Below, one piece after another: positions 234 through 38,289 of a stretch of 64,000 nt of DNA. A program made the translations under genes and the position numbers. The notes below the pieces were generated by a model. The model made no database searches and was not told the DNA's origin. It saw only the letters and a program-made list of their open reading frames with translations. Within the stretch, counting starts at the first letter, position 1. Each line of letters begins with the position of its first letter. Origin of the DNA: Kitasatospora sp. Root107 (GTDB taxonomy: Bacteria; Actinomycetota; Actinomycetes; Streptomycetales; Streptomycetaceae); assembly GCF_001424875.1 (NCBI RefSeq), contig NZ_LMCT01000072.1:128698-192697 (forward strand). Reading direction: 5' to 3'.

Positions 234-1406
234 GTGGCAGGCAGCACGAACACCCCCGCCCACGGCCTGTTCACCACCGGCGAGCCGGTCAACGCCTGGA
301 CGGTCAGTACCGCCCTTCCGATCACCTACCAGGTCGGCTTCACCCCGCAGCTGCTCCACCCGGGCAACCCGGCACTCGCCACCGCCGGTGCCACCGCCGG
401 GCGGCGTCTGGTGGTGGTGGAGGAGACCGTGCACGCGCTCTACGGCGAACGGATCCTGGCCTACTTCGGGACCCGCGACCTGGAGGTCGAGCTCTGCGTG
501 CTGGCGGCGCACGAGGAGGTCAAGACGATGGAGTCGGTGTTCCGGGTCGCCGACCGGATGGACCGCTTCGGGGTCTCCCGGCGGGCCGAGCCGGTGATCG
601 CGATGGGCGGCGGCGTCCTGATGGACGTGGTCGGCCTGGCCTGCAGTCTCTACCGCCGCTCGACCCCGTTCGTCCGGGTGCCCACCACGCTGATCGGGCT
701 GGTGGACGCGGGCGTCGGAGCAAAGACCGGGGTCAACTTCGGCCGGCACAAGAACCGGCTTGGCACCTACCACCCGGCGGTGGCCACGCTGCTCGACCCG
801 GCCTTCCTGGCCACCCTGGACCAGCGGCACCTGAGCAACGGCCTGGCGGAGATCCTCAAGGTCGCCCTGATCAAGGACCGGCGGCTGTTCGAGCTGCTGG
901 ACCGGACCGGCGAGGCGCTGATCGACCAGCGCTTCCAGGGCCCGGCCCCCGGCGGCGAGGTGCTGGTCCGGGCGGTGCACGGGATGCTCCAGGAGCTCCA
1001 ACCCAACCTCTGGGAGCACCGGTTGGAGCGCTCGATGGACTACGGCCACTCGTTCAGCCCGACCGTGGAGATGCGGGCGCTGCCCGAGCTGCTGCACGGC
1101 GAGGCGGTCTGCCTCGACATGGCACTGACCACCGTGCTCGCCCAGCGGAGGGGACTGGTCGAGGCCGCCGAGCGGGACCGGATCCTCGGGCTGATGCGCC
1201 GGCTCCGACTCCCGGTCCGGCACCCGCTGTTGGAGCCGGAGACGCTGGCCGAGGCGCTCACCGACACGATCCGGCACCGGGACGGCCGACAGCGCTTCCC
1301 GCTGCCGGTCGGGATCGGCGACGGCTGCTTCGCCGACGACCTGACCGCCGCCGAGATCGGCCGGGCGGCCACCGAACTGGAGGAACTGGCATGCGTGGCA
1401 CCGTAA
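234..1406 (+). CDS. Sugar-phosphate cyclase, 2-epi-5-epi-valiolone synthase-like
   Basis: A 390-residue dehydroquinate-synthase-fold enzyme. Members of this family use NAD+ and a divalent metal to cyclise sedoheptulose 7-phosphate to a C7 cyclitol. Visible signatures are IAMGGGVLMDVVGLA (nucleotide loop), LIGLVDAGVGAKTGVNF and KNRLGTYHP (substrate Lys and Asn), GLAEILKVALIKD (metal Glu), SMDYGHSFSP and LLHGEAVCLDMAL (metal His). The DAGVGAKTGVN/KNRLG pattern separates it from housekeeping dehydroquinate synthase and points to the EEVS group of acarbose, validamycin and cetoniacytone pathways. The GTG at 234 is chosen because AGAGGAGG lies just upstream; an in-frame GTG at 171 lacks such a site. 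The 3' end overlaps the next gene by 16 bases. Family is firm; the exact product (2-epi-5-epi-valiolone rather than another epimer) is inferred from the CetB-like partner at 3282. Confidence 0.85.
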   Translation: MAGSTNTPAHGLFTTGEPVNAWTVSTALPITYQVGFTPQLLHPGNPALATAGATAGRRLVVVEETVHALYGERILAYFGTRDLEVELCVLAAHEEVKTMESVFRVADRMDRFGVSRRAEPVIAMGGGVLMDVVGLACSLYRRSTPFVRVPTTLIGLVDAGVGAKTGVNFGRHKNRLGTYHPAVATLLDPAFLATLDQRHLSNGLAEILKVALIKDRRLFELLDRTGEALIDQRFQGPAPGGEVLVRAVHGMLQELQPNLWEHRLERSMDYGHSFSPTVEMRALPELLHGEAVCLDMALTTVLAQRRGLVEAAERDRILGLMRRLRLPVRHPLLEPETLAEALTDTIRHRDGRQRFPLPVGIGDGCFADDLTAAEIGRAATELEELACVAP

Positions 1407-2101
1407 TTGTCGCCGGCACCCGCGGCCCCGCCGAGGTGCACGGTGTGCACGGCGCCCAGGGGCTGACCCGGTGGGCCTGCCTGGCCCGCAGGCCGGGACT
1501 GCTCGGCAACTGGGAGGCGGTCGAGTGGGCCAGCCTTCCGCCCGGCGGTGTCAGCGGTGAGCACCTGCACACCCGCACCGAGGAGGTCTACGTGCTCCTC
1601 ACCGGCCGAGGGGAGATCATCCTCGACGGCCGGCCCCATCCCGTCGAGGCCGGTGATGTCGTACTCACCGGCCTCGGCACCACCCACGGTCTCCGCAACG
1701 CGGGCACCGAGGCGCTGGACTGGCTGGTGATCGAAATGCCCGCACTACCCCGACTGAGGACCCCGATCCTGCGGCACGCCGTGGTGACCAACCTGCGCCG
1801 GGTCGGCCCGATCGACCCCGGCGCGGTGCTCACCGGGCCGCTGCGGCACCTCGAACTGGTCCGGCTGCGAGCTGGCCAGCGGGTCGAGCTGGCCGCCGAC
1901 GCGACCGAGCACACCGTCTTCGTGACGGCCGGCCGCGGCCGGGCCGCCGCCGCGGACGTCCGGGTGCCGCTGGAGCCCGGCCGGTCCGTCACCCTCCCGC
2001 TCGGCAGCTCGGCGTCCTTCACCGCCGGGAACGACGGGCTGGAGTACGTCCACGCGGTGCTCACCGTGCCGCCCTCCGAACATCCTGGAGAGCTCCGATG
2101 A
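1391..2101 (+). CDS. Two-domain cupin protein
   Basis: A 236-residue protein. The N-terminal half (about residues 25-120) is a standard cupin with motif 1 GGVSGEHLHTRTEEVYVLLTG (HxH plus Glu) and motif 2 PVEAGDVVLTGLGTTHGLRN (third His), so it should bind a metal. The C-terminal half (about 135-230) has cupin-like strands but no His ligands; it is clearly related to the separate 106-residue protein at 2556. The ATG at 1391 lies inside the end of the cyclase gene and the TGA overlaps the next ATG, so it is translationally coupled on both sides. Cupins act as isomerases, epimerases, oxygenases or lyases; within this operon an acid/base or isomerase role on a cyclitol is plausible but unproven. 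Confidence 0.75.
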   Translation: MRGTVIVAGTRGPAEVHGVHGAQGLTRWACLARRPGLLGNWEAVEWASLPPGGVSGEHLHTRTEEVYVLLTGRGEIILDGRPHPVEAGDVVLTGLGTTHGLRNAGTEALDWLVIEMPALPRLRTPILRHAVVTNLRRVGPIDPGAVLTGPLRHLELVRLRAGQRVELAADATEHTVFVTAGRGRAAAADVRVPLEPGRSVTLPLGSSASFTAGNDGLEYVHAVLTVPPSEHPGELR

Positions 2102-2559
2102 TCGTCACCGACACGGCCCACGCGGCCGTGCACCTCGGCCCCGGCACCCAGCGGGTCCGCACCTGCTGCCTGGCCCGCCGGGGCATGCTGCACAGCGAGA
2201 CCGAGGCCGTCGACCACGTCCGGCTCAGCCCCGGCGCCTGCTACGACCTGGCCGGCCGGGCCGGAACCGAGGCGGCCTGGTACGTGCTGCGCGGGCCGGT
2301 AGCGCTGCTGGACTGCCCTGAGCAGCCGCAGCACCTGCTGGCCGAGGGCGACCTGCTGCTGGCCCCCGAGGGCGGCCGGGTGCACCTGCACGGCGGCCCG
2401 CTCGGCGCCGAGCTGCTCTGCCTGACCGTGCTGCCGGACGCGGTCAGTCGCGAACTCCCGGACCGCAAGCCCGAGATCGGGACACCACGCCCTGTTGCCC
2501 GGGACAACGGGCAGGACACCGTCGAAGCATCAGGTCCGAACAAGGAGCGTCAGAGATGA
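2098..2559 (+). CDS. Degenerate cupin-like protein, copy 1
   Basis: A 153-residue protein with the strand pattern of a small cupin (HVRLSPGACYDL, EAAWYVLRGPVALL, LLAEGDLLLAPEGG, LGAELLCLTVL) but without the HxH metal motif, so probably a non-catalytic or structural beta-barrel. It is closely related to the gene at 2873: EAAWYVLRGPV and GPLGAELLCLT are shared. The ATG overlaps the preceding stop as ATGA (2098-2101) and its own TGA overlaps the next ATG (2556-2559). After about residue 125 the tail is low-complexity and not shared with the other copy. Function unknown; the operon ties it to the cyclase. Confidence 0.65.
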   Translation: MIVTDTAHAAVHLGPGTQRVRTCCLARRGMLHSETEAVDHVRLSPGACYDLAGRAGTEAAWYVLRGPVALLDCPEQPQHLLAEGDLLLAPEGGRVHLHGGPLGAELLCLTVLPDAVSRELPDRKPEIGTPRPVARDNGQDTVEASGPNKERQR

Positions 2560-2876
2560 CCAGCACCGCGATCACCGCCCTCCGCCGGGGCCGCGCCGTG
2601 GACCCCGGCCAGGTGCTCACCGGTCCGCTGCGCGGGGTCGGCCTCAGCTGGCTCGACCCGCAGCAGAGCATCGAACTGACCGCCGACGGTGTCGAGCACA
2701 CGCTCTACGTCACCGCCGGAGCCGGCCGGGCGAGCACCGACGAGACCGACGTGCCGCTGGCCGAAGGCACCGCCGTCACGCTGCCGCTGGGCGGCGAACT
2801 CGTCCTCACCGCCGGGGAGTCGGGCCTGGAGTACTTCCACGCCGTCCTGGCCGTACCGGGAGAAGGCCCCCGGTGA
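2556..2876 (+). CDS. Small degenerate cupin, duplicate of the bicupin C-terminal half
   Basis: A 106-residue protein that matches the C-terminal half of the two-domain cupin at 1391 along its length: VDPGQVLTGPLR, VEHTLYVTAGAGRA, VTLPLGGELVLTAG and GLEYFHAVLAVP each have a direct counterpart there. No His cluster for a metal is seen. It starts at an ATGA overlap with the preceding gene and ends at GTGA, where the next gene begins. It therefore looks like one half of a duplicated two-part unit that has become an independent subunit. It may form a heteromer with the neighbouring degenerate cupin; that is inference. Confidence 0.6.
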   Translation: MTSTAITALRRGRAVDPGQVLTGPLRGVGLSWLDPQQSIELTADGVEHTLYVTAGAGRASTDETDVPLAEGTAVTLPLGGELVLTAGESGLEYFHAVLAVPGEGPR

Positions 2877-3265
2877 TCGTCACCACCGCCTCAGCCGCCG
2901 CCATGACCGTGGTCGGCCCCGGCAGCGAGCGCACCCGCGTGAGCTGCCTGGCCCGCCGCGACCTGGTCACCGCCGACTGCGAGTCCTTCGAACACCTCCG
3001 GCTCAGCCCCGGCGGCACCCACCACCGCGCGGGCCGCCCCGAGACCGAGGCCGCCTGGTACGTGCTGCGCGGCCCGGTGGTCGCCGAGCAGCGGCCGGGC
3101 CGGGCCCAATACCTGGCCGACGCCGGTGACCTGCTGCTGGTCCCGGCGAGCCAGAACCTCGACCTGACGGCCGGCCCACTCGGCGCCGAGCTGCTCTGTC
3201 TGACCCTCGGCGCCGCCCCGGCCCCGCACCGCCGTCCGCTGCCCCGCCGCCGCACCCGCCCCTGA
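2873..3265 (+). CDS. Degenerate cupin-like protein, copy 2
   Basis: A 130-residue product read from a GTG that overlaps the stop of the preceding gene (GTGA, 2873-2876). It begins VIVTTASAAAMTVVGPGSERTR, parallel to MIVTDTAHAAVHLGPGTQRVR in copy 1, and shares EAAWYVLRGPV and LGAELLCLTL with it. The last 20 residues are Arg/Pro-rich and probably disordered. No metal-binding His motif is visible. The pair 2556+2873 repeats the order of [C-terminal half of 1391]+2098, so the operon carries a tandem duplication. An upstream in-frame extension to 2495 exists but lacks a ribosome binding site and would run through the preceding gene. Confidence 0.6.
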   Translation: MIVTTASAAAMTVVGPGSERTRVSCLARRDLVTADCESFEHLRLSPGGTHHRAGRPETEAAWYVLRGPVVAEQRPGRAQYLADAGDLLLVPASQNLDLTAGPLGAELLCLTLGAAPAPHRRPLPRRRTRP

Positions 3266-3281
3266 TCCGCTGGGAGTCCTC

Positions 3282-3818
3282 ATGAGCGCCGTCCCCGGTG
3301 CCCTCGCCGTGCACCACGTCGCGTACACCGTGCCCGATCTGGACCAGGCGGTCGCCTTCTTCACCGAGGTGATCGGCGCCGAACTGCTCTACCGGACCGG
3401 TCCCGTGCACGACCCGGACGGGGACTGGATGACCCGTCAGCTCGGCGTCCACCACCGGGCCGCCGCGTACGTGGCGATGCTCCGGCTGGGCCCGGTGACC
3501 AATCTGGAGCTGTTCGAGTACAGCTCGCCGGACCAGCGCCGCGAGCTGCCCAGGAACAGCGACTGGGGCGGTCACCACCTGGCCATCGCGGTCACCGACG
3601 TGGACGCCGCCGCCGCGTACCTGCGGGAGCAGCCCGGCGTGCAGGTGCTCGGCCGGCCGGAGACGGTGGCCGACGGCGGCCCGATCGACGGCGACCGCTG
3701 GGTCTACTTCCGGACGCCGTGGGGCCTGCAGCTGGAGCTGATCGACCTGCCGCCCGGGCTGCCGTACGAGCGGCAGACCGAGGCCCGGCTCTACCGGCCG
3801 ACGCAGAACTGGAGTTGA
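3282..3818 (+). CDS. VOC-superfamily epimerase, CetB-like
   Basis: A 178-residue vicinal-oxygen-chelate protein with two beta-alpha-beta-beta-beta modules: ALAVHHVAYTVPDLDQAVAFF, NLELFEYSS, GGHHLAIAVTDVDAAAAYL and LQLELIDLPPG give the expected His/Glu metal ligands. In the cetoniacytone pathway the VOC protein CetB epimerises 2-epi-5-epi-valiolone to 5-epi-valiolone, and EEVS genes in actinobacteria often sit beside such a gene. Position three to five genes after an EEVS-type cyclase in one transcript makes the same reaction the best prediction. It could instead be a general glyoxalase-fold isomerase. The ATG at 3282 follows a GGGAG site with no overlap to the previous gene. Confidence 0.8.
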   Translation: MSAVPGALAVHHVAYTVPDLDQAVAFFTEVIGAELLYRTGPVHDPDGDWMTRQLGVHHRAAAYVAMLRLGPVTNLELFEYSSPDQRRELPRNSDWGGHHLAIAVTDVDAAAAYLREQPGVQVLGRPETVADGGPIDGDRWVYFRTPWGLQLELIDLPPGLPYERQTEARLYRPTQNWS

Positions 3819-3823
3819 GCGAG

Positions 3824-4936
3824 ATGCCGAACGCCACCGCCGCCGTGGTCCGGGGCCCGGGGCAGCCGTTCACCCTGGAGCCGGTCCGGCTGGACGACCC
3901 GCGTCCCGACGAGGTGCTGGTGCGGATCGCCGCCGCCGGGATCTGCCACACCGACCTGAGCGTCCGGGCCGGGCACACTCCGGGCCCGCTGCCCGCCGTG
4001 CTCGGCCACGAGGGGGTCGGGACGGTGCAGGCGGTCGGCAGCGCGGTGACCCGGCTGACGGTCGGTCAGACCGTGCTGCTCACCTTCGCCTCCTGCGGGG
4101 CCTGCCCCGACTGCCGGGACGGGCAGCCGGTCCGGTGCGCGCACTGGCCCCGGCTCAATCTGTTCGGCGGCAGCCGGCTGGACGGCAGCGCCACGCTCAG
4201 CGGCGCGGACGGTTCGCCGCTGCACGGGCACTTCTTCGGCCAGTCCTCGTTCGCCACCCTGGCGCTGGCCACCGAGCGCAACGCGGTACCGGTGCCGGAC
4301 GGGGTGCCGGCGGAGCTGCTGGCCCCGTTCGGCTGCGGCGTACAGACCGGCGCGGGGGCGGTGCTGAACGTGCTGCGGCCCGGGCCGGGCGACACGGTGG
4401 CGGTGTTCGGCGCCGGGGCGGTCGGGCTCTCGGCCCTGCTGGCCGCCCTGCTCACCCCGGCGGCCCGGCTGGTGGCGGTGGACGTCCGGCCGGACCGGCT
4501 GATGCTGGCGCGCGAGCTGGGCGCCACCGACGTGGTGGACGCCACGGCCGAGGACCCGGTCGAGGCGATCATGGAACTGACCAAGGGCAGGGGTGCCGGG
4601 CACACCCTGGAGACCAGCGGGCAGCTCGGCGCACTCGGCGCAGCGGTCCGCGCGCTCGCGGTCGGCGGCACCTGCGCGGTGGTCGGGGCGCCGCCGACGG
4701 GCAGTCAACTCGCCCTGGACGTACCGGCGCTGCTGGACCGGGTACCGAGGATCGTCGGCGTCAACCAGGGCGCGAGCCGGCCCGGGCGATTCCTGCCCGC
4801 GCTGGTGGACCTGCACCTGGCGGGCCGGCTGCCGGTCGACCGGCTGGTGCGGACCTTCCCGTTCGCCGATGTGGAGCGGGCCGCGACGGCCGCGACGGCG
4901 GGGGAGGTGGTGAAGCCCGTCCTGGTGATGCCCTGA
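3824..4936 (+). CDS. Zinc-dependent alcohol dehydrogenase (MDR family)
   Basis: A 370-residue medium-chain dehydrogenase. Catalytic zinc ligands are visible in GICHTD (Cys), VLGHEGVG (His-Glu) and PFGCGVQTG (Cys); the structural zinc site is the four-Cys loop CGACPDCRDGQPVRC; the NAD-binding turn is VFGAGAVGLSAL. It resembles aryl/benzyl-alcohol and class III-like dehydrogenases. The ATG at 3824 is preferred over an in-frame start at 3719 because that one lies inside the VOC gene; the true start comes five bases after the VOC stop. In this operon it probably oxidises or reduces a cyclitol hydroxyl or keto group, completing a cyclase-epimerase-dehydrogenase set. The substrate is not deducible from sequence. 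Confidence 0.85.
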   Translation: MPNATAAVVRGPGQPFTLEPVRLDDPRPDEVLVRIAAAGICHTDLSVRAGHTPGPLPAVLGHEGVGTVQAVGSAVTRLTVGQTVLLTFASCGACPDCRDGQPVRCAHWPRLNLFGGSRLDGSATLSGADGSPLHGHFFGQSSFATLALATERNAVPVPDGVPAELLAPFGCGVQTGAGAVLNVLRPGPGDTVAVFGAGAVGLSALLAALLTPAARLVAVDVRPDRLMLARELGATDVVDATAEDPVEAIMELTKGRGAGHTLETSGQLGALGAAVRALAVGGTCAVVGAPPTGSQLALDVPALLDRVPRIVGVNQGASRPGRFLPALVDLHLAGRLPVDRLVRTFPFADVERAATAATAGEVVKPVLVMP

Positions 4937-4989: not shown

Positions 4990-5661
4990 GTGGACGAGCT
5001 GCAGCGGGACACCGGTTCGGTGCGGGTACTGATCGTGGACGACCATCCGCTCTTCCGGGAGGGTCTGAAGGCCGCCCTGCAGAGCGCCGACGGCATCGAG
5101 GTGGTCGGCGAGGCGGAGACCGTCGCGGCCGTACCGGGCGCGGTGGCCGAGTGCCTGCCCGACGTGGTGGTGCTGGACCTCTCGCTGCCCGACGGCTCCG
5201 GTCTGGAGGCGGCCCGCAGGCTGGCCGAGCAGACCCCGACCGTACCCGTCCTGATGCTCACCATGGCCGACGACGACGGCAGCCTGCTGGCCGCCCTGCA
5301 GGCCGGAGCACGCGGCTACCTGGTCAAGGGCGCCGGGCGGGACGAGGTGCTGCACGCGGTGCGCACCGTGGCGGCCGGCGGCGCGGTCTTCGGCTCCGAG
5401 ATCGCGGCCCGGATCACCGCCCTGCTGGCCGGCACCAAGCTGCGCGAGGCGGGCCAGCTGTTCCCCTCGCTCACCGCCCGCGAGGCCGAGGTGCTCGACC
5501 TGGTGGCCCGGGGCCTGGACAACCGCCGGATCGCCCGCGAGCTGGTGGTGGCCGAGAAGACCGTCCGCAACCACGTCACCCACATCTTCGAGAAGTTGCA
5601 CGTCGCCACCCGCGCGGAGGCGGTGGCCCGGGCCAGGGACATGGGGCTGGGCGGCGAATAG
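4990..5661 (+). CDS. NarL/FixJ-type response regulator
   Basis: A 223-residue regulator. Receiver domain: RVLIVDDHPLFREGL (acidic pocket), VVVLDLSLPDG (phospho-acceptor Asp), and LVKGAG (conserved Lys). C-terminal LuxR helix-turn-helix: LTAREAEVLDLVARGLDNRRIARELVVAEKTVRNHVTHIFEKL. A GTG at 4990 is used; a second GTG at 5020 would remove ten residues. The gene starts 53 bases after the alcohol dehydrogenase stop without an obvious terminator, so it may be co-transcribed with the cyclitol operon. The cognate kinase follows at 5744. Targets are unknown. Confidence 0.85.
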   Translation: MDELQRDTGSVRVLIVDDHPLFREGLKAALQSADGIEVVGEAETVAAVPGAVAECLPDVVVLDLSLPDGSGLEAARRLAEQTPTVPVLMLTMADDDGSLLAALQAGARGYLVKGAGRDEVLHAVRTVAAGGAVFGSEIAARITALLAGTKLREAGQLFPSLTAREAEVLDLVARGLDNRRIARELVVAEKTVRNHVTHIFEKLHVATRAEAVARARDMGLGGE

Positions 5662-5743: not shown

Positions 5744-7777
5744 ATGAGCGAGAACGAGATCACCAGCGCCAGTACGGCCCGGGCACTCGCGGCCGCGGCC
5801 TTCGCCCTGCTCTGCGCTCTCGGCTGGTCGGTGCTCGCACTGACCCACCGCGACGCCGAGGGGATCAGTGAGTACTACCTCTTCGACGGCACCGTCGTCG
5901 CGCTCGGCCTGACCTTCGCGCTCTCCGGCCTGTTCCTGGTGATCAACCGGAACGGCCGGGGCCTGGGCGTGCTGCTGCTGGTCGCCGGGGGGCTGCAGGT
6001 CCTGCAGATGCTCCTGGGGCTCGCCGCCGAGCTGGCGGGAGCGGGGCCCGCGGTGATGAACGCCGTCCTGGCGGTGGTGATCGCCGCCGCGATCGCCAAC
6101 GCCTTCATGATGCTGGCCTTCCCGCTCTGGCTCCCGGACGCCCGGCTGCCCGGCGGGTTCTGGCGGATCGTCACCGGGCTGGTCGCGGCGTGGTGCGTGG
6201 TGGTCGGCGTGCTCAACGCGGGCCTGCACACGGGGTACTACACCCGGGCGAACCCGCTTGAGGGCACCGCACTGCTCGACTGGCTGGAGGAGCACGTCGA
6301 GCCGTACTCCTACGACGTCTTCACCGTCGGTGTGGCCCTCACCCTGACCGTCGCCGCCGTCCGCTGGTGGCGCTCGCCGGGACCGCACCCGCACCTGCGG
6401 GAGGTGGCCGCGGCCTACCTGGTCTGGGTCACGCTGATCACCGTCCCGCACTATCTCGACGACTACCCCGACTGGGTCCCGTACGCGGTGGTCTTCGTGG
6501 GCGAGGCAGTCTGGCTGCTGGTGCCCGTCCTCGGCTTCCGCCGGGACCGCTCGCTCTCGCTGGACCGGGCCACCCGGCGCTATCTGGCCTCGTACGCCTT
6601 CTGCACGCTGCTGTTCATCGTCGTCCTGCTGCTCGCCTATCTGATGGGCAGTCTGCTCCCGGACGCCGGGCCCGACGCCGGGCCCGGCGTCCGCTGGTGG
6701 CTGCTGCCGGCGGCGGCGCTGCTCGGCGCGCTGCTGCGCCCGGCGGCCCGGTTCGTGGTGCGTGCCGTGGACCGGTACTACTACGGCGAGCGGGCCCACC
6801 CGTACCAGGTGGTGCGCAAGCTGGCCGAGCGGATGAGCCAGGCCGTCGGCCCCGCCGAGGCGCCTTCGCTGCTCTGCCAGACCGTGGTGATCGCGCTCGG
6901 CCTGCCCGGCGCGTGCGTACGGGTCGGCACCCGCAGCGGGCCCCGCGAGCTGGCCGGGCTCGGTGACGCCGAGCTCCCCGCCGAGAGCTTCCCGCTCAGC
7001 TACGAGGGCGTGGTGATCGGCGAGCTGTCCGTGCCGCCGCGCTCCGGGCAGCGCGAGCTGGACCGGCAGGACCGCGAGGTGCTCCGGCTGCTCGCCGACC
7101 AGGCCTCGCCCGCGATCGCCTCGCTCCGGCTGTACGAGGACCTGCAGGCCAGCCGGAAGCGGATCGTGCTGGCCCGGGAGGAGGAGCGGCGGCGGCTCCG
7201 GCACGACCTGCACGACGGGCTCGGGCCCGCGCTCTCCGGCCTGCGCCTGCAGATCGACGCGGCCCGGACCGGCATCGCGCCCGAGTCGGAGGCCGCGGTC
7301 TCGCTCGGCACCGCCTCGGCCGGGATCGGCCAGGCGATCACCGAACTGCGCCGGATCACCGACGGGCTGGCTCCCGCCGCCCTCGGCAGCGAAGGTCTCG
7401 CAGGGGCGCTGAGGCGGCTCGCCGACGGCCTCGGCCACCACACCCTCCGGGTCACCCTCGACCTCGACCCCGACCCGCTGCCCACCCTGCCCGCCGCCGT
7501 CGAGGTCGCCATCTACCGGATCAGCGGCGAGGCCCTCAACAACGTGGTCCGCCACTCCGGCGCCGCCGCCGCCCGGCTCACCCTCCGGGTCCGCCCCGAC
7601 GAGGTCACCGTCGAGGCCACAGACGACGGCGCGGGCTTCCCCGCCCACACCGGCGGTGCGGGCGTCGGCCTGCGCTCGATGGCCGAACGCGCCGAGGAGC
7701 TGGGCGGCACCTTCACCGCCGCCAACGACTCCGACGGCGCGGTCGTCCGGGCCGTCTTCCCCCGGGTTCCCGCGTAG
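5744..7777 (+). CDS. Membrane sensor histidine kinase (HisKA_3 type)
   Basis: About 677 residues. Roughly ten hydrophobic segments fill the first 340 residues, followed by a GAF-like region (about 375-455), a HisKA_3 dimerisation/phosphotransfer helix with REEERRRLRHDLHDGLGPALSGLRL (phospho-His in RHDLHDGLG) and an HATPase_c domain (EALNNVVRHSG, DDGAGF, VGLRSMAERAEELGGTF). The ATG at 5744 follows GAGGGAG; an in-frame ATG at 5702 would add 14 residues but has a poorer site. It pairs with the response regulator just upstream, giving the order regulator then kinase. The multi-pass sensor region suggests a membrane-associated or lipophilic signal. Confidence 0.85.
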   Translation: MSENEITSASTARALAAAAFALLCALGWSVLALTHRDAEGISEYYLFDGTVVALGLTFALSGLFLVINRNGRGLGVLLLVAGGLQVLQMLLGLAAELAGAGPAVMNAVLAVVIAAAIANAFMMLAFPLWLPDARLPGGFWRIVTGLVAAWCVVVGVLNAGLHTGYYTRANPLEGTALLDWLEEHVEPYSYDVFTVGVALTLTVAAVRWWRSPGPHPHLREVAAAYLVWVTLITVPHYLDDYPDWVPYAVVFVGEAVWLLVPVLGFRRDRSLSLDRATRRYLASYAFCTLLFIVVLLLAYLMGSLLPDAGPDAGPGVRWWLLPAAALLGALLRPAARFVVRAVDRYYYGERAHPYQVVRKLAERMSQAVGPAEAPSLLCQTVVIALGLPGACVRVGTRSGPRELAGLGDAELPAESFPLSYEGVVIGELSVPPRSGQRELDRQDREVLRLLADQASPAIASLRLYEDLQASRKRIVLAREEERRRLRHDLHDGLGPALSGLRLQIDAARTGIAPESEAAVSLGTASAGIGQAITELRRITDGLAPAALGSEGLAGALRRLADGLGHHTLRVTLDLDPDPLPTLPAAVEVAIYRISGEALNNVVRHSGAAAARLTLRVRPDEVTVEATDDGAGFPAHTGGAGVGLRSMAERAEELGGTFTAANDSDGAVVRAVFPRVPA

Positions 7778-8089: not shown

Positions 8090-9880
8090 TCAGTGCTCGT
8101 GGTGCATGCCGCCGTGGCCCATGCCCGGGTCGAGGGCCATCACGGCGGCCGGGGAGACGGTGAAGGGGCGCATCATGCCGTCGTCCTCGTGGTCGAGGAT
8201 GTGGCAGTGGTACATGAACTTGCCGGTGGCCCCGGTGAACTGGCCTGCCACCCGGACGAGTTCGCGCGGTGCGACGGTGACGGTGTCCTTCCAGCCCTGC
8301 TCGGCGGGGTCGATCGGGTTCTGGGCGCCCCAGCTGACCGGCTTGCCGATCGGGGTGCCGCCGCTCACCGGGTCGAAGCCGGTGGTGTCGACGGTGGCCC
8401 GGGTGAGGATCTGGAACTGGATCAGGTGGATGTGCACCGGGTGCAGCGCCAGCTGCGCCAGGTTGATGATGGTCCACTGCTCCCAGGCGTCCTCGTCGAT
8501 CCGCCAGTTGAGGCGGTCGTTGAAGTCGGCCGAGATCCGCCGGTAGGTGTGGACGGCCTGGCCGGCCGCCTGCACCTGGACGATCCCGTCCTGGACGGTG
8601 CCGACGGGCGGTACCTCCGCCGCCGGGACCTCCTCCATCTCCCAGAAGTGGAACATCGTGCCGCTGTCCTGAGTGATCATCAGGACCCGGTGGCCGTGGT
8701 GCGGGATGTCGTCGTGGGCCAGCCGCCGGAAGCTCGGCGAGAGCACGGCGGGCAGTGCGAACGGCTCGGGCTCGGCGGTGGCCGAGACCCGGAACTCCAT
8801 CACCTCGGGGTCCGGCAGCCGGTTGGCCGGGTCGGCGATGCCGACCGCGTCGTGCTCGCCGATCGGGGTGCCCTCGGCGGGGGCCGGGGCGGAGTTGACC
8901 AGCCGCAGGGTGCGGCCGGCCAGTGCGGTGAAGTCGATCAGCAGGTCGGCCCGCTCGGCCGGGGCCAGGCTGAGGCCGCGCCCCGGCAGCGGGATCGGGG
9001 TGCCGAACAGGCCGGCGTCACTGCCGATCTGCCAGGCCACCCCGTTCACCCGCTGCCCGTCCGGGTCGACCAGGTGCAGCCGGTACGGACGGGAGTTGGA
9101 CGCGTTCAGCACCCGGAACCGGTACCAGCGCGGCTTGACCGCGTGGTACGGCCAGATCACGCCGTTCACCAGGGTGTACCGCCCGCAGTACGGCAGCGGG
9201 CCGACCGTCTTGTGCAGCAGCTGCCCGGTCAGCGCACCGTCCGGGCCGGTGGCCAGATTCCGGTCGCAGAGCACCAGCGGGACCTCGAACTCCCCGGCGG
9301 GCAGGTGCAGTCGGTCCTCCTCCTCATCCCGGATCAGGTACGTCCCGACCAGCCCGGCGAGCACGTTGAGCCGGGTGACGCCCATCGCGTGGTCGTGGTA
9401 CCAGAGCGGCATCGCGGCCTGGTCGTTCGGGTACTCGGAGAGCTGGGAGTGGCCGGTGTGGACCGCGTTGTCGGTCCAGCCGTCGTTGCCGCCGTTGGTG
9501 ACCGCGCCGTGCAGGTGCACCACCAGCCAGGGCGGCAGGGCGGGGCCCCTGGGGTCGATCAGGGTGGGGTCGATGCCCGGCACGTTCTCGGCCGGGGGCA
9601 TGGTGATGTCGGGGAGATGGCCGATCTGGGCGGGGTAGGGGGTGCTGATCCGGTTCTGCCAGTCGATCCGCAGCCGCTGTCCGCGCCGGACCTCGATGGT
9701 CGGGCCGGGGAAGCTGCCCTCGTACGTCCACATCGGGGTCGGGGGCAGCTCGGAGTGCAGTTGCACGTCGGCCGACAGTTGACGGATGGTCAACTCGGCT
9801 TCGGGGCGGAGCACCTGGGGGATGCGCAGCGGGTCGGCGAATTTGGTGAGGTCGGTGGTTTCGGGCACGGTTTCGGGCAC
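8090..9880 (-). CDS. Multicopper oxidase (phenoxazinone synthase/CotA-like)
   Basis: A 596-residue three-cupredoxin oxidase. Copper motifs are WLVVHLHGAVTNGGNDGW, PLWYHDHAMG, LHPVHIHLIQFQIL and FMYHCHILDHEDDGMMRPF; the last holds the type-1 Cys and the axial Met. No signal peptide or twin-arginine motif precedes the first domain (MPETVPETTDLTKF), so the enzyme should be cytoplasmic like Streptomyces phenoxazinone synthase or spore CotA rather than a secreted laccase. The C-terminus is Gly/Met/His-rich (GMGHGGMHHEH), possibly an extra copper site. Likely substrates are aminophenols or other phenolics; Cu(I) oxidation is an alternative. The gene stands alone between a terminator and the divergent M28 peptidase. 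Confidence 0.88.
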   Translation of the reverse strand: MPETVPETTDLTKFADPLRIPQVLRPEAELTIRQLSADVQLHSELPPTPMWTYEGSFPGPTIEVRRGQRLRIDWQNRISTPYPAQIGHLPDITMPPAENVPGIDPTLIDPRGPALPPWLVVHLHGAVTNGGNDGWTDNAVHTGHSQLSEYPNDQAAMPLWYHDHAMGVTRLNVLAGLVGTYLIRDEEEDRLHLPAGEFEVPLVLCDRNLATGPDGALTGQLLHKTVGPLPYCGRYTLVNGVIWPYHAVKPRWYRFRVLNASNSRPYRLHLVDPDGQRVNGVAWQIGSDAGLFGTPIPLPGRGLSLAPAERADLLIDFTALAGRTLRLVNSAPAPAEGTPIGEHDAVGIADPANRLPDPEVMEFRVSATAEPEPFALPAVLSPSFRRLAHDDIPHHGHRVLMITQDSGTMFHFWEMEEVPAAEVPPVGTVQDGIVQVQAAGQAVHTYRRISADFNDRLNWRIDEDAWEQWTIINLAQLALHPVHIHLIQFQILTRATVDTTGFDPVSGGTPIGKPVSWGAQNPIDPAEQGWKDTVTVAPRELVRVAGQFTGATGKFMYHCHILDHEDDGMMRPFTVSPAAVMALDPGMGHGGMHHEH

Positions 9881-34610: not shown

Positions 34611-35552
34611 GTGACGGTGTCCGAAACGGTGGAGGCCCTGGAGGGTCGGTTCGACGCGGTGGTGGCGGCCGAGCAGCGGGTGGAGCCGCGGGACTGGATG
34701 CCCGAGGCGTACCGGGCCACGTTGGTGCGGCAGATCGCGCAGCACGCGCACTCCGAGATCATCGGCATGCAGCCGGAGGGTGCCTGGCTGACCAGGGCGC
34801 CCTCGCTGCGGCGGAAGGCGATCCTGCTGGCCAAGGCGCAGGACGAGGCGGGCCACGGGCTCTACCTCTACGCGGCCGCCGAGACGCTCGGGGTGGACCG
34901 GGCCGAGCTGACCGAGAAGCTGATCTCGGGGCGGCAGAAGTACTCCTCGATCTTCAACTACCCGACGCTGAGCTTCGCCGACGTCGGCGTGATCGGCTGG
35001 CTGGTGGACGGCGCGGCGATCTGCAACCAGGTGCCGCTCTGCCGCTGCTCGTACGGTCCGTACGCCCGTGCGATGGTGCGGGTCTGCAAGGAGGAGTCGT
35101 TCCACCAGCGGCAGGGCTTCGAGCTGCTGATGACGATGATGCGCGGCACCGAGGGCCAGCGCGCGATGGTGCAGGACGCGGTGGACCGCTGGTGGTGGCC
35201 GTCGCTGATGATGTTCGGCCCGCCGGACGGTGACTCGCCGAACACGGCGCAGTCGATGGCCTGGCGGATCAAGCGGCACACCAACGACGAGCTGCGGCAG
35301 CGATTTGTCGACATGACGGTCCCGCAGGCGCAGCACCTCGGCGTCACGCTCCCCGACCCGGAGCTGAGCTGGGACGAGGAGCGCGGCAGCTGGGCCTTCG
35401 GTGAGCCGGACTGGTCGGAGCTCAAGCAGGTGATCAAGGGTCAGGGCCCGTGCAACGCGGAGCGGATCGAGCGCCGCCGGGCCGCCCACGAGGACGGTGC
35501 CTGGGTGCGCGAAGCCGCACTGGCCCACGCGGAGAAGGAGCGCAACCGATGA
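34611..35552 (+). CDS. paaA: Phenylacetyl-CoA epoxidase subunit PaaA
   Basis: A 313-residue catalytic alpha subunit of the ring 1,2-phenylacetyl-CoA epoxidase. The diiron site is seen in [41 protein letters not shown] (ExxH) and [19 protein letters not shown] (ExxxH type). The enzyme epoxidises phenylacetyl-CoA with O2 and NADPH electrons delivered by PaaE. GTG 34611 is used because GGGAGG precedes it and the promoter/operator ends at 34595; an in-frame ATG at 34524 would lie upstream of the promoter. Length (313) agrees with the family. First gene of paaABCDE. Confidence 0.93.
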
Positions 35553-35836
35553 GCAAGGCCGACTGGCCCCTGTACGAGGTCTTCGTCCGCCCCCGGCGCG
35601 GGCTGAACCACGTGCACGTGGGTTCGCTGCACGCCGCCGACGACCGGATGGCGCTGCTCGCCGCCCGCGACCTCTACACCCGGCGGAACGAAGGCGTCAG
35701 CCTCTGGGTGGTCCCGTCCACCGCGATCACCGCCTCCACCCCCGACGAGCAGGACCCGTTCTTCGCCCCCAGCGGGGACAAGGTCTACCGGCACCCGACC
35801 TTCTACGACATCCCCGAGGATGTCCCGCACATCTGA
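35549..35836 (+). CDS. paaB: Phenylacetyl-CoA epoxidase subunit PaaB
   Basis: A 95-residue small subunit: [49 protein letters not shown] is the family's conserved block. PaaB bridges PaaAC heterodimers in the complex and has no metal site. ATG 35549 overlaps the paaA stop as ATGA. The C-terminus [11 protein letters not shown] is typical. Confidence 0.92.
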
Positions 35837-35852
35837 CGGGGGAGCACCTCTC

Positions 35853-36743
35853 ATGAGTGACAACCACGGCGACCACGTCTACCTCTCCCTCGCCGAGGCC
35901 GACCACGGCCCGGAGGGCGAGGCCCGCTGGGCGTACGGCACCGGCTTCGCCGACCCGCTGCTCGGCGTGGACCGGGCGGCCCCGGCGGGGGTGGACGCGG
36001 CCGACCTGGCGGCGTACTGCCTGATGCTCGGCGACGACACGCTGATCCTGGCCCAGCGGCTGATCGAGTGGTGCACCCGGGCGCCCGAGCTGGAGGAGGA
36101 GGTGGCGCTCGCCAACCTCGGCCTCGACCTGCTCGGCCAGGCGCGCCAGCTGCTCACCCGGGCCGGCCAGCTGGACGGCACCGAGCGGACCGAGGACGAC
36201 CTGGCGTACTGGCGCGAGGCGCACGAGTTCCGCAACGTCCGCCTGGTGGAGGTACCGAATGGCGACTTCGGGCACACCGTGGCCCGGCTGCTGCTGTTCG
36301 CCACCGCCCGGCACGCGCTGTACGAGCGGCTGAGCACGCACGTCGACCCGGTGCTGGCGGCGGTCGCGGCCCGGGGCGTCAAGGAGCTGGCCTACCACCG
36401 CGAGTACGCCGCCGCCTGGACGCTGCGGCTCGGCGACGGCACGGCGTACTCCGCCGAGCGGATGCAGGCCGGGCTCGAGGCGGTCTGGCCGCTGCTGGAC
36501 GAGCTGTTCACGGCCGATCAGGCCGAGCTGCGGCTCGGCGTCGACCCGGGCGGGCTGCGCGAGCCGGTGCTGGCCGAGCTGACCGAGGTGATCACCGGGG
36601 CCGGTCTGACGGTGCCCCAGGCGGCCCCGATGGCCCGGGTCGGCGGCCGGGCGGGCCGGGACGGCGTGCACACCGAGGCGCTCGGCCTGCTGCTGGCCGA
36701 GCTCCAGGTGGTGGCCCGGGCGCACCCGGGGGCGTCATGGTGA
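35853..36743 (+). CDS. paaC: Phenylacetyl-CoA epoxidase subunit PaaC
   Basis: A 296-residue structural subunit with a ferritin-like fold related to PaaA: YCLMLGDDTLILAQRLIEWCTRAPELEEEVALANLGLDLLGQARQLL, DDLAYWREAHEFRNVRLVEVPNGDFGHTVARLL and KELAYHREYAAAWTLRLGDGT. PaaC pairs with PaaA and lacks the full iron ligand set. GGGGGAG precedes ATG 35853, 16 bases after paaB. Its end overlaps paaD by seven bases. Confidence 0.92.
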   Translation: MSDNHGDHVYLSLAEADHGPEGEARWAYGTGFADPLLGVDRAAPAGVDAADLAAYCLMLGDDTLILAQRLIEWCTRAPELEEEVALANLGLDLLGQARQLLTRAGQLDGTERTEDDLAYWREAHEFRNVRLVEVPNGDFGHTVARLLLFATARHALYERLSTHVDPVLAAVAARGVKELAYHREYAAAWTLRLGDGTAYSAERMQAGLEAVWPLLDELFTADQAELRLGVDPGGLREPVLAELTEVITGAGLTVPQAAPMARVGGRAGRDGVHTEALGLLLAELQVVARAHPGASW

Positions 36744-37219
36744 CCACCGCGCCCTCGGCCTGGGAGGTGGCAGCCGCTGTCCCCGACCCCGAGCTGCCGA
36801 TGCTCACACTGGCCGAACTCGGCGTGCTGGCCGAGGTGGCGGAGGAGGGCCCGGCGGTGACCGCCTGGCTCACCCCGACCTACTCGGGCTGCCCGGCCGT
36901 CGCCGAGATGGCCGCCGACGTGGCGGGCCGGCTACGGGCTGCGGGCTGGGCCCAGGTGGAGATCCGGCTCCGGCTGGACCCGCCGTGGAGCACCGACCTG
37001 ATCACCGAGGCGGGCAAGCGCAAACTGGCCGAGGCGGGCATCGCCCCGCCGGTGCACACCGGCCTGCTGCAACTGGGCCGGACCAGGCTCGCGGTGCCCT
37101 GCCCGCAGTGCGGCAGCCAGGACACCGAGGAACTGTCCAGGTTCGGCTCCACCTCCTGCAAGGCGCTCTGGCGCTGCCGCGAGTGCCGGGAGCCCTTCGA
37201 ACGGATCAAGGAGATCTAG
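36737..37219 (+). CDS. paaD: PaaD, iron-sulfur/diiron assembly factor
   Basis: A 160-residue protein. The N-terminal MIP18/DUF59 domain is VAAAVPDPELPMLTLAELGVLAEV with YSGCPAVAEM; the C-terminal part has a zinc-ribbon (VPCPQCGSQDTEEL ... TSCKALWRCRECREPFERIKEI). PaaD is thought to help mature the Fe-S or diiron centres of the epoxidase rather than take part in catalysis. It starts at ATG 36737 within the end of paaC. Confidence 0.9.
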   Translation: MVTTAPSAWEVAAAVPDPELPMLTLAELGVLAEVAEEGPAVTAWLTPTYSGCPAVAEMAADVAGRLRAAGWAQVEIRLRLDPPWSTDLITEAGKRKLAEAGIAPPVHTGLLQLGRTRLAVPCPQCGSQDTEELSRFGSTSCKALWRCRECREPFERIKEI

Positions 37220-38289
37220 TGACCACCACGACCTCCCGTCGGCTCACCTTCCAGGAGCTGCGGATCGCGGCGCTGGAGCCGCTCTGCGAGGACGCCGTCG
37301 CGGTCACCTTCGAGGTGCCGGCCGAGCAGGCCGAGGCGTACGCCTTCCGGCCCGGCCAGACCCTGACGCTGCGTCGGATCGTGGACGGCGTGGACGAGCG
37401 GCGCTCGTACTCGATCTGCGCGCCGGTGGGCGGGGCGCTGCGGATCGCGGTCCGGGAGGTGCCGGGCGGGCTGTTCTCCCGCTGGCTGGTCCGGGAGGCC
37501 CGGGTCGGCGACAGCATGGAGGTGATGCCGCCGGTCGGTCTGTTCACCCCCGACCTGTCGGTGCCCGGTACGCACGTGCTGCTGGCCGCCGGTTCCGGGA
37601 TCACGCCGATGCTCTCGATCGCCGCCTCGGTACTGGCCGACGGCGAGTCCGAGGTGGTCCTGGTGTACGGGAACCGGAGCAGCGACACGGTGATGTTCGC
37701 CGACGAGCTGGCCGACCTGAAGGACACTCACCTCGGCCGGTTCCAGCTGCTGCACGTGCTCTCCCGGGAGACCAGGGACGCCGAGCTGCTCAGCGGCCGG
37801 CTGGACGCGGAGCGGGTGCGGGCGCTGTTCGGCGCGCTGCTGGACGTGCCCGAGGTGGACCACTGGTGGCTGTGCGGCCCGTACGGCATGGTGCTCGGGG
37901 CCAAGGAGCTGCTGGCCGAGCTGGGGGTGCCCGCCGACCGGGTGCACCAGGAGCTGTTCCACGCCGAGGACGAGCCGGTTGCCGAGCGCGCGCCCGAGCA
38001 GCCGGACGGCGAGCGCTCCGAGGTGACGGTGGTGCTGGACGGCCGCTCCGGCACCCTGGCGCTGCCGCGCGACCGGTCGATCCTGGACGGCGCCCAGCGC
38101 TCCCGCCCCGACCTACCGTTCGCCTGCAAGGGCGGCGTCTGCGGCACCTGCCGGGCGCTGGTCACCGAGGGCGAGGTGAGCATGCGGCGGAACTTCGCGC
38201 TGGAGGAGAAGGAGCTCGCGGCCGGGTACGTGCTGACCTGTCAGGCCCGCCCGGTCTCCGACAAGGTCACCGTCGACTACGACCGGTAG
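37219..38289 (+). CDS. paaE: Phenylacetyl-CoA epoxidase reductase PaaE
   Basis: A 356-residue NADPH reductase: an FAD domain (RRSYSICAPVGGALRIAVREVPGGLFSRWL), an NAD(P)-binding domain (VLLAAGSGITPMLSIAASVL, WWLCGPYGMV) and a C-terminal plant-type [2Fe-2S] ferredoxin domain (FACKGGVCGTCRALVTEGEVSM ... YVLTCQARP, four Cys). It passes electrons to PaaA. GTG 37219 shares its first base with the paaD stop (TAGTG). Its last 13 bases overlap the convergent flavoprotein gene. Confidence 0.93.
   Translation: MTTTTSRRLTFQELRIAALEPLCEDAVAVTFEVPAEQAEAYAFRPGQTLTLRRIVDGVDERRSYSICAPVGGALRIAVREVPGGLFSRWLVREARVGDSMEVMPPVGLFTPDLSVPGTHVLLAAGSGITPMLSIAASVLADGESEVVLVYGNRSSDTVMFADELADLKDTHLGRFQLLHVLSRETRDAELLSGRLDAERVRALFGALLDVPEVDHWWLCGPYGMVLGAKELLAELGVPADRVHQELFHAEDEPVAERAPEQPDGERSEVTVVLDGRSGTLALPRDRSILDGAQRSRPDLPFACKGGVCGTCRALVTEGEVSMRRNFALEEKELAAGYVLTCQARPVSDKVTVDYDR

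Follow-up and report, generated by a model that had tools for sequence, protein, structure and literature searches.

An EEVS-type cyclase, cupin and VOC gene core and its reduced operon in Kitasatospora

At positions 234-4936 of a 64,000-nucleotide stretch of the Kitasatospora sp. Root107 genome (G000:C72:128698-192697 of an 8.17 Mb assembly; the whole stretch is hereafter the window) lies an operon of seven plus-strand genes for a sugar phosphate cyclase of the 2-epi-5-epi-valiolone synthase (EEVS) type, four cupin proteins, a VOC protein and a zinc alcohol dehydrogenase (ADH). Its cyclase, cupin and VOC genes belong to a core that recurs across many bacterial genomes and that apparently constitutes a widespread, undescribed way from sugar rings to unsaturated or aromatic compounds. 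With a chance judged to be about even, this core dehydrates or isomerises 2-epi-5-epi-valiolone to an unsaturated C7 ring, the window then holding a short operon built on EEVS, cupins of three kinds (A, B and C) and a VOC protein. EEVS-started pathways are best known from the aminocyclitol drugs, which they reach via kinases and transaminases; many loci take another EEVS way, with near-obligatory cupins and a VOC protein. The word undescribed is based on searches of the open-licence literature, which returned nothing joining 'epi-valiolone synthase' with cupin and nothing joining sedoheptulose, cyclase, cupin and Streptomyces, while gabosine-related listings showed no such cluster; a description within papers on cetoniacytone, EEVS evolution or ValA is possible.

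The cyclase and the spread of the core

The earlier note had described a tightly coupled seven-gene operon, and gene calls, Pfam families and structural models confirm it. The cyclase gene CYC (234-1406, 390 amino acids, GTG start) is followed by BIC (1391-2101, 236 amino acids), a bicupin that joins a metal-type domain A to a domain B without a metal site, and then by three single cupins, namely CUPC (2098-2559, 153 amino acids, 131 in locus L161), CUPB (2556-2876, 106 amino acids) and CUPC2 (2873-3265, 130 amino acids, GTG start), with five cupin domains spread over the four cupin genes. The VOC gene (3282-3818, 178 amino acids) and the ADH gene (3824-4936, 370 amino acids) complete the set, and the successive junctions measure -16, -4, -4, -4, +16 and +5 nt. 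Pfam recognises CYC (DHQ_synthase, 2.7e-31; DHQS_C, 4e-23), BIC (Cupin_2, 2.1e-21), VOC (Glyoxalase, 9.4e-12) and ADH (ADH_N, 2.3e-26; ADH_zinc_N, 8.4e-21).

Among solved structures, CYC is closest to ValA, the EEVS of validamycin (4p53, 486 bits), ahead of a DDGS (5tpr, 261 bits) and a dehydroquinate synthase, DHQS (3clh, 146 bits). A maximum-likelihood tree of 98 rows, compiled without two short rows, near-duplicates and the rows of a paralogue (CYC2) taken up below, joins CYC and ValA in one 23-row clade (SH-aLRT 98) that contains neither DDGS nor DHQS, and a 130-row FastTree phylogeny concurs; the assignment to the EEVS type made in the earlier note is upheld. Nineteen of the 23 rows are labelled as bicupin-linked, with labels that are rough in that L105 is wrongly marked bicupin-less and L030 has a single-cupin gene only. 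The catalytic motifs of CYC are intact in columns aligned with ValA, DDGS and DHQS, and the last of them departs from ValA by a Lys-to-Arg change that is shared by most of the bicupin-linked cyclases compared. It is quite unlikely that CYC makes a different product from sedoheptulose 7-phosphate, for example 2-epi-valiolone, from which the pathway would then start: this alternative can point to the Lys-to-Arg change and to a comparison made without an EVS reference or the full 14-residue fingerprint, but membership of the ValA clade at a support of 98 and the closeness of the remaining motifs to those of ValA speak against it. A residue list for typing such cyclases is mentioned in one account (PMC4426668). 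The row nearest to ValA is the bicupin-linked cyclase of Streptomyces sp. ISL-12 (L109; 63-64% identical, support 94 and 95 in the two trees), which hints that the validamycin cyclase may descend from a cupin-linked ancestor.

The spread of the core was gauged from the bicupin alone. An alignment of eight bicupin sequences, reduced to two short peptide patterns, was scanned against one genome per species for 84,980 species and gave 75 loci; bicupins without these patterns escaped the scan. By tblastn, a cyclase is present in 73 of the 75 loci (E <= 1e-20, 49-84% identical), and in 62 of these it lies no more than 500 nt from the best bicupin match; a further C-type cupin is present in 73 and a VOC match at 1e-5 in 72. 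Because the loci had been found by the bicupin alone, these counts establish a grouping beyond chance and bear out the expectation that cupin and VOC genes accompany the cyclase. In the two cyclase-less loci, the sequence begins 57 nt before the bicupin (L042) or shows no cyclase in the 5.4 kb upstream to the contig start (L058). The hosts are mostly Actinomycetota (among them Kitasatospora, Streptomyces, Micromonospora, Actinoplanes, Amycolatopsis, Lentzea, Nocardia, Arthrobacter and Cellulomonas), with Archangium and Roseibium among those from outside the phylum; the four bicupin loci of the named collection that are closest outside the genome itself are all from Kitasatospora. A plasmid collection searched with the bicupin yielded only single-domain Vibrio cupins at 34%.

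Searches in the reverse direction, over 394 genomes of the class, found 23 cyclase places (E <= 1e-45) in 20 of them. Nine of these group with DDGS, three adjoin a bicupin and a fourth has a bicupin in the same cluster, so the cupins mark one part of the cyclase family and not all EEVS. Within the genus, 30 of 70 genomes hold 38 cyclase places; 12 of these reach 68% identity or more along the whole cyclase, of which 11 adjoin a bicupin and one lies at a contig end, and the place at L170 (56%) has a bicupin as well. The genome of the window also carries a second bicupin-CUPC pair on contig 73 (L035:9905-11055), with no cyclase in 20 kb and with a HAD hydrolase and an FAD oxidoreductase near, and G151 has a bicupin-like, cyclase-less pair beside an SDR and a glyoxalase-type gene.

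Proteins of the core and their predicted chemistry

Pfam alone falls below the cut-off for three of the four cupin genes, with no match for CUPC and Cupin_2 values of 0.019 for CUPB and 0.061 for CUPC2. Other evidence identifies all three as cupins: CUPC aligns with the first BIC domain (hhalign, 98.9%) and its AlphaFold model (pLDDT 84.7) resembles cupins, CUPB duplicates the second domain, B, of BIC (53% identical to residues 127-227), and CUPC2 duplicates CUPC (50-53% identical). In domain A of BIC, residues H58, H60, E64 and H99 are invariant in 49 of 49 aligned sequences, an alignment from which one G058 copy with internal stop codons was excluded; CUPC is similar to this domain but without the H-H-E-H set. 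Some Pseudonocardiaceae (L084, L104) have separate A, B and C genes, indicating that the window carries a partly duplicated version of a basic A-B-C set. The BIC model (pLDDT 93.1) has a two-barrel cupin fold with a metal-binding barrel, and its nearest folds among the matches listed, other families being possible, are YlbA (Z 22.6), AerE (21.3), plant ureidoglycine aminohydrolase (20.8) and BacB (20.5), at 10-15% identity. AerE and BacB are enzymes of cyclohexadienol chemistry; their identity to BIC is 10-13%, and neither is among its PDB sequence matches.

The VOC protein, a probable epimerase, has the fold of its family with the H/E/H/E metal set, residues H12, E76, H98, H99 and E152 being invariant in 31 of 31 sequences, and its best solved relative is a remote one, methylmalonyl-CoA epimerase (5.4e-07). 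CetB and ValD are VOC epimerases of valiolone. The ADH is of the benzyl/aryl-alcohol dehydrogenase type, with 5tnx (345 bits) and the benzyl alcohol dehydrogenase 1f8f (313 bits) as nearest solved structures and the next at 191 bits.

Around the core, several tailoring sets occur: a BBE-type FAD oxidase with an acyltransferase and an MFS protein; ADH, SDR and VOC genes with a KAS-III-like enzyme; a GMC oxidase and an ADH with a two-component pair; a DegT aminotransferase with a GMC oxidase (10 loci, five of them with a DAHP synthase in addition); and, in 5 loci, a UbiA prenyltransferase accompanied by a Pyr4-like membrane terpene cyclase. A short operon that stands by itself in Nocardia panacis runs in the order bicupin, cyclase, ADH (of the window type, 55% identical) and O-methyltransferase. 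This variety, in which some loci do have aminotransferases, removes the label of orphan that the earlier note had given the operon, the core being widespread and the window holding a reduced form of a cluster that is larger in other Kitasatospora genomes. At L069, L071, L073, L093 and L098 the core is found with a DAHP synthase, a chorismate-binding enzyme, an AMP ligase, a KAS-III-like enzyme, a DegT aminotransferase and a GMC oxidase; the product there may be a C7 ring linked to an acid derived from chorismate. The five UbiA loci are inferred to be BE-40644-like, a likeness drawn from published descriptions and not from the cluster sequence. As far as these accounts go, BE-40644 is made from sedoheptulose 7-phosphate via EEVS, cyclitol dehydration and a UbiA-type prenyltransferase (PMC5133447), the prenyltransferase BAD07390 is similar to MenA (PMC3227686), and the compound is a drimane merosesquiterpene whose formation involves an integral-membrane cyclase (PMC12453296). 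Mevalonate genes close to the UbiA-type clusters would strengthen this likeness; a genome-wide search of 11 genomes gave HMG-CoA synthase matches in 3, two of them from the UbiA-type five.

A conserved core should yield one common intermediate, and a route to it can be proposed. From its kinship and motifs, CYC would convert sedoheptulose 7-phosphate to the EEVS product 2-epi-5-epi-valiolone, which is a beta-hydroxyketone. The VOC protein would epimerise the position beside the ketone through an enediolate, and the metal-type domain A of BIC, held by cupins without a metal site, would eliminate water from the beta-hydroxyketone, shift a double bond, or both. This step is given to BIC because it is the remaining conserved candidate catalyst and because the branches would have in common a step in which water is lost or a double bond shifts. 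The outcome might be an unsaturated hydroxymethyl-cyclohexenone or, upon loss of a second water, a polyhydroxybenzyl alcohol, and the ADH may then oxidise either the CH2OH, by now allylic or benzylic, or a hydroxyl on the ring. A phenol or enone fits the different branches that have a UbiA prenyltransferase, an O-methyltransferase or a benzyl-alcohol-type ADH, and a gabosine-like cyclohexenone likewise fits the acyltransferases and aminotransferase. A valienone- or gabosine-like product, as proposed in the earlier note, is possible for the window, and the relatives with a UbiA-type prenyltransferase suggest that the ring might instead resemble a hydroquinone or quinone; nothing in the operon analysis points to the cofactor-like product also proposed there.

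It is enticing to go further and, as a tentative and rather doubtful extension, to regard the EEVS-cupin-VOC core as a benzenoid route outside the shikimate pathway. A three-part cupin complex, with one metal-type barrel and two without that site, would dehydrate and aromatise 2-epi-5-epi-valiolone to a polyhydroxybenzyl alcohol that is afterwards oxidised, prenylated, methylated, acylated or aminated, depending on the bacterium, and the window would hold a pared-down version that aromatises and then oxidises the benzylic alcohol. At the opposite end, the cupins and the VOC protein might only epimerise or isomerise, leaving a saturated cyclitol for the ADH to oxidise with no loss of water. The occurrence of isomerases and epimerases among cupin and VOC folds and the lack of any other dehydratase family in the window lend this something, but the core is common to loci with a UbiA prenyltransferase, an O-methyltransferase or acyltransferases, part of which would call for a ring that is unsaturated or phenolic, and a saturated product is accordingly considered unlikely. 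As for CUPC, CUPB and CUPC2, it is highly improbable that they are sensors or carriers instead of parts of an enzyme complex; they are without the domain A ligand set, but the fusion of B to A in the bicupin and the 4-nt overlaps among the A, B and C genes suit a complex.

Several observations weigh against dehydration or isomerisation by the core. The chemical steps are all inferred, the analysis having established which genes are present, their kinship and conservation, the reduction and the purifying selection, and the link to BE-40644 is by description only. Dioxygenases, an oxalate decarboxylase, a ureidoglycine aminohydrolase and seed storage proteins are likewise among the folds near BIC (8-20% identity), so the comparison settles the fold and not the reaction. 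Bicupins occur without a nearby cyclase at L035 in the same genome, in G151 (L036) and at L058. Finally, the window is without the second ADH, extra cupin and SDR of the larger clusters described below, so its product may stop earlier or differ.

The reduced Kitasatospora operon and its neighbours

At the same genomic site beside HPPD, four Kitasatospora loci (L161, L162, L163 and L165) carry a longer cluster in the order CYC, BIC, CUPC, CYC2, CUPB, CUPC2, ADH (F08), cupin (F19), SDR (F04) and VOC, followed by the window-type ADH, which in L162 runs past the end of the stretch; L162 also has additional called genes around CYC2. Here as elsewhere, genes outside the window were called with a crude custom script. 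The window (L024) and a sister genome, G424 (L160, cyclase 94% identical), are without CYC2, F08, F19 and the SDR at that site. By comparison of the loci, the place of CYC2 corresponds to 2556-2559 of the window and that of F08, F19 and F04 to 3266-3281. Relocation of the missing block was rejected, F19 having no match at 1e-5 in the G000 or G424 genomes and F08 only matches of 34-38% (the SDR was not searched for); relocation of CYC2 was likewise dismissed, its sole match in the G000 genome being 29% identical and overlapping the second cyclase match of that genome.

Between the window and G424, the ratios of nonsynonymous to synonymous substitution (dN/dS; Nei-Gojobori method, custom script) are 0.23 for CYC, 0.31 for BIC, 0.40 for CUPC, 0.07 for CUPB, 0.33 for CUPC2, 0.27 for VOC and 0.24 for ADH, with 0.12 and 0.35 for the response regulator and histidine kinase genes downstream and 0.08-0.30 for five flanking genes. 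A range of 0.07-0.40 against a sister species argues that the operon is maintained, and the window operon looks, as judged from these comparisons, like a reduced yet maintained version of the larger cluster. That it is instead a decaying, functionless remnant is very unlikely. Four genes of the full cluster are indeed gone, and loss has gone further elsewhere in the genus (L029 and L175 retain CYC, CYC2, CUPB and CUPC2, and L174 a cyclase fragment), but all seven frames are open and their dN/dS values lie near those of the flanking genes.

The paralogue CYC2, exemplified by L161:6836-8068 (minus strand), L032:7272-8417 (plus) and L025:406-2055 (minus), is present in 13 of the 75 loci and in 24 of a broader set of 106. 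Counts from the latter are rough, four genomes being counted twice (L039/L163, L040/L164, L041/L166 and L068/L161) and genes in some loci (e.g. L099, L105, L108 and L110) having been missed or mislabelled by the gene caller. In an alignment of 20 CYC2 sequences, some columns of which may be misplaced, all 20 have lost the His of the HGE motif and 15 that of the GH motif, 3 retain the metal-binding Glu, and the lysine stretch is unrecognisable. CYC2 forms a single, fully supported branch in the 130-row tree. The protein looks catalytically dead and is possibly a structural partner, and this cyclase-fold paralogue without an active site is a second puzzle posed by the relatives.

The earlier note had ended the operon with the ADH gene, but two further genes follow on the same strand, a LuxR-type response regulator (4990-5661; Response_reg and GerE), the probable regulator of the operon, and its partner sensor histidine kinase (5744-7777; HisKA_3). 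The order ADH, response regulator and histidine kinase is kept in 13 of the 106 loci, and the pair is predicted to regulate the operon. Beyond it, at 8090-9880 (minus strand), lies a multicopper oxidase like the o-aminophenol oxidase PhsA (726 bits, under the family cut-off of 950), a relative of which adjoins the cluster in L160 (95%) and L168 (58%); a phenolic product might be its substrate, or its place there may be due to chance. Directly upstream of the window (L024:4938-9330) are divergent genes for FAH, a 252-amino-acid protein without a Pfam family, an HGD-like protein and HPPD. These homogentisate-type genes were rejected as pathway members because all 70 genomes examined in the genus carry HPPD, and the cluster thus sits beside a core locus. 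Farther off in the window is a complete paaABCDE operon for the 1,2-phenylacetyl-CoA epoxidase (34611-38289, plus strand), every subunit above its NCBIfam cut-off.

Comparison with known systems

The acarbose and validamycin C7N clusters likewise begin with a sedoheptulose 7-phosphate cyclase, which in the acarbose route, as one account gives it, is followed by the kinase AcbM and the isomerase AcbO (PMC7081202). The window operon is unlike them in having cupins instead of a kinase, aminotransferase or glycosyltransferase, an absence noted earlier and borne out by family scans; a cyclitol kinase and an aminotransferase were not found in a scan of the seven genes and the regulators. In keeping with the claim in the earlier note that cupins are foreign to the known pathways, no cupin is annotated, in incomplete annotation, in 7-17 kb at the S. 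clavuligerus, A. vitis and Nostoc DDGS sites. The gene set described for the BE-40644 pathway of Actinoplanes sp. A40644 is matched, by description only, in five bicupin loci, whereas the window is without the UbiA prenyltransferase and membrane terpene cyclase. The near-obligatory company of cupins and a VOC protein makes a question testable, namely by which enzymes 2-epi-5-epi-valiolone becomes a dehydrated or quinoid C7 ring, such as that of BE-40644 and perhaps of gabosine-type cyclohexenones, and the window operon, with its seven biosynthetic genes, is a convenient small system in which to pursue it.

At the level of single proteins, BIC has the bicupin fold in common with BacB, AerE and ureidoglycine aminohydrolase but differs in its 10-15% identity and its genetic setting. 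Methylmalonyl-CoA epimerase-type VOC proteins, the closest solved relatives of the window VOC protein, have a ligand set like its own yet are remote. The ADH is similar over its full length to the benzyl/aryl alcohol dehydrogenases 1f8f and 5tnx, but its gene stands in a cyclitol operon. CYC, lastly, shares a clade with ValA and, apart from the Lys-to-Arg change in the last one, matching catalytic motifs; its predicted activity would, unlike that of ValA, be exercised in a genomic setting of cupins, a VOC protein and an ADH.

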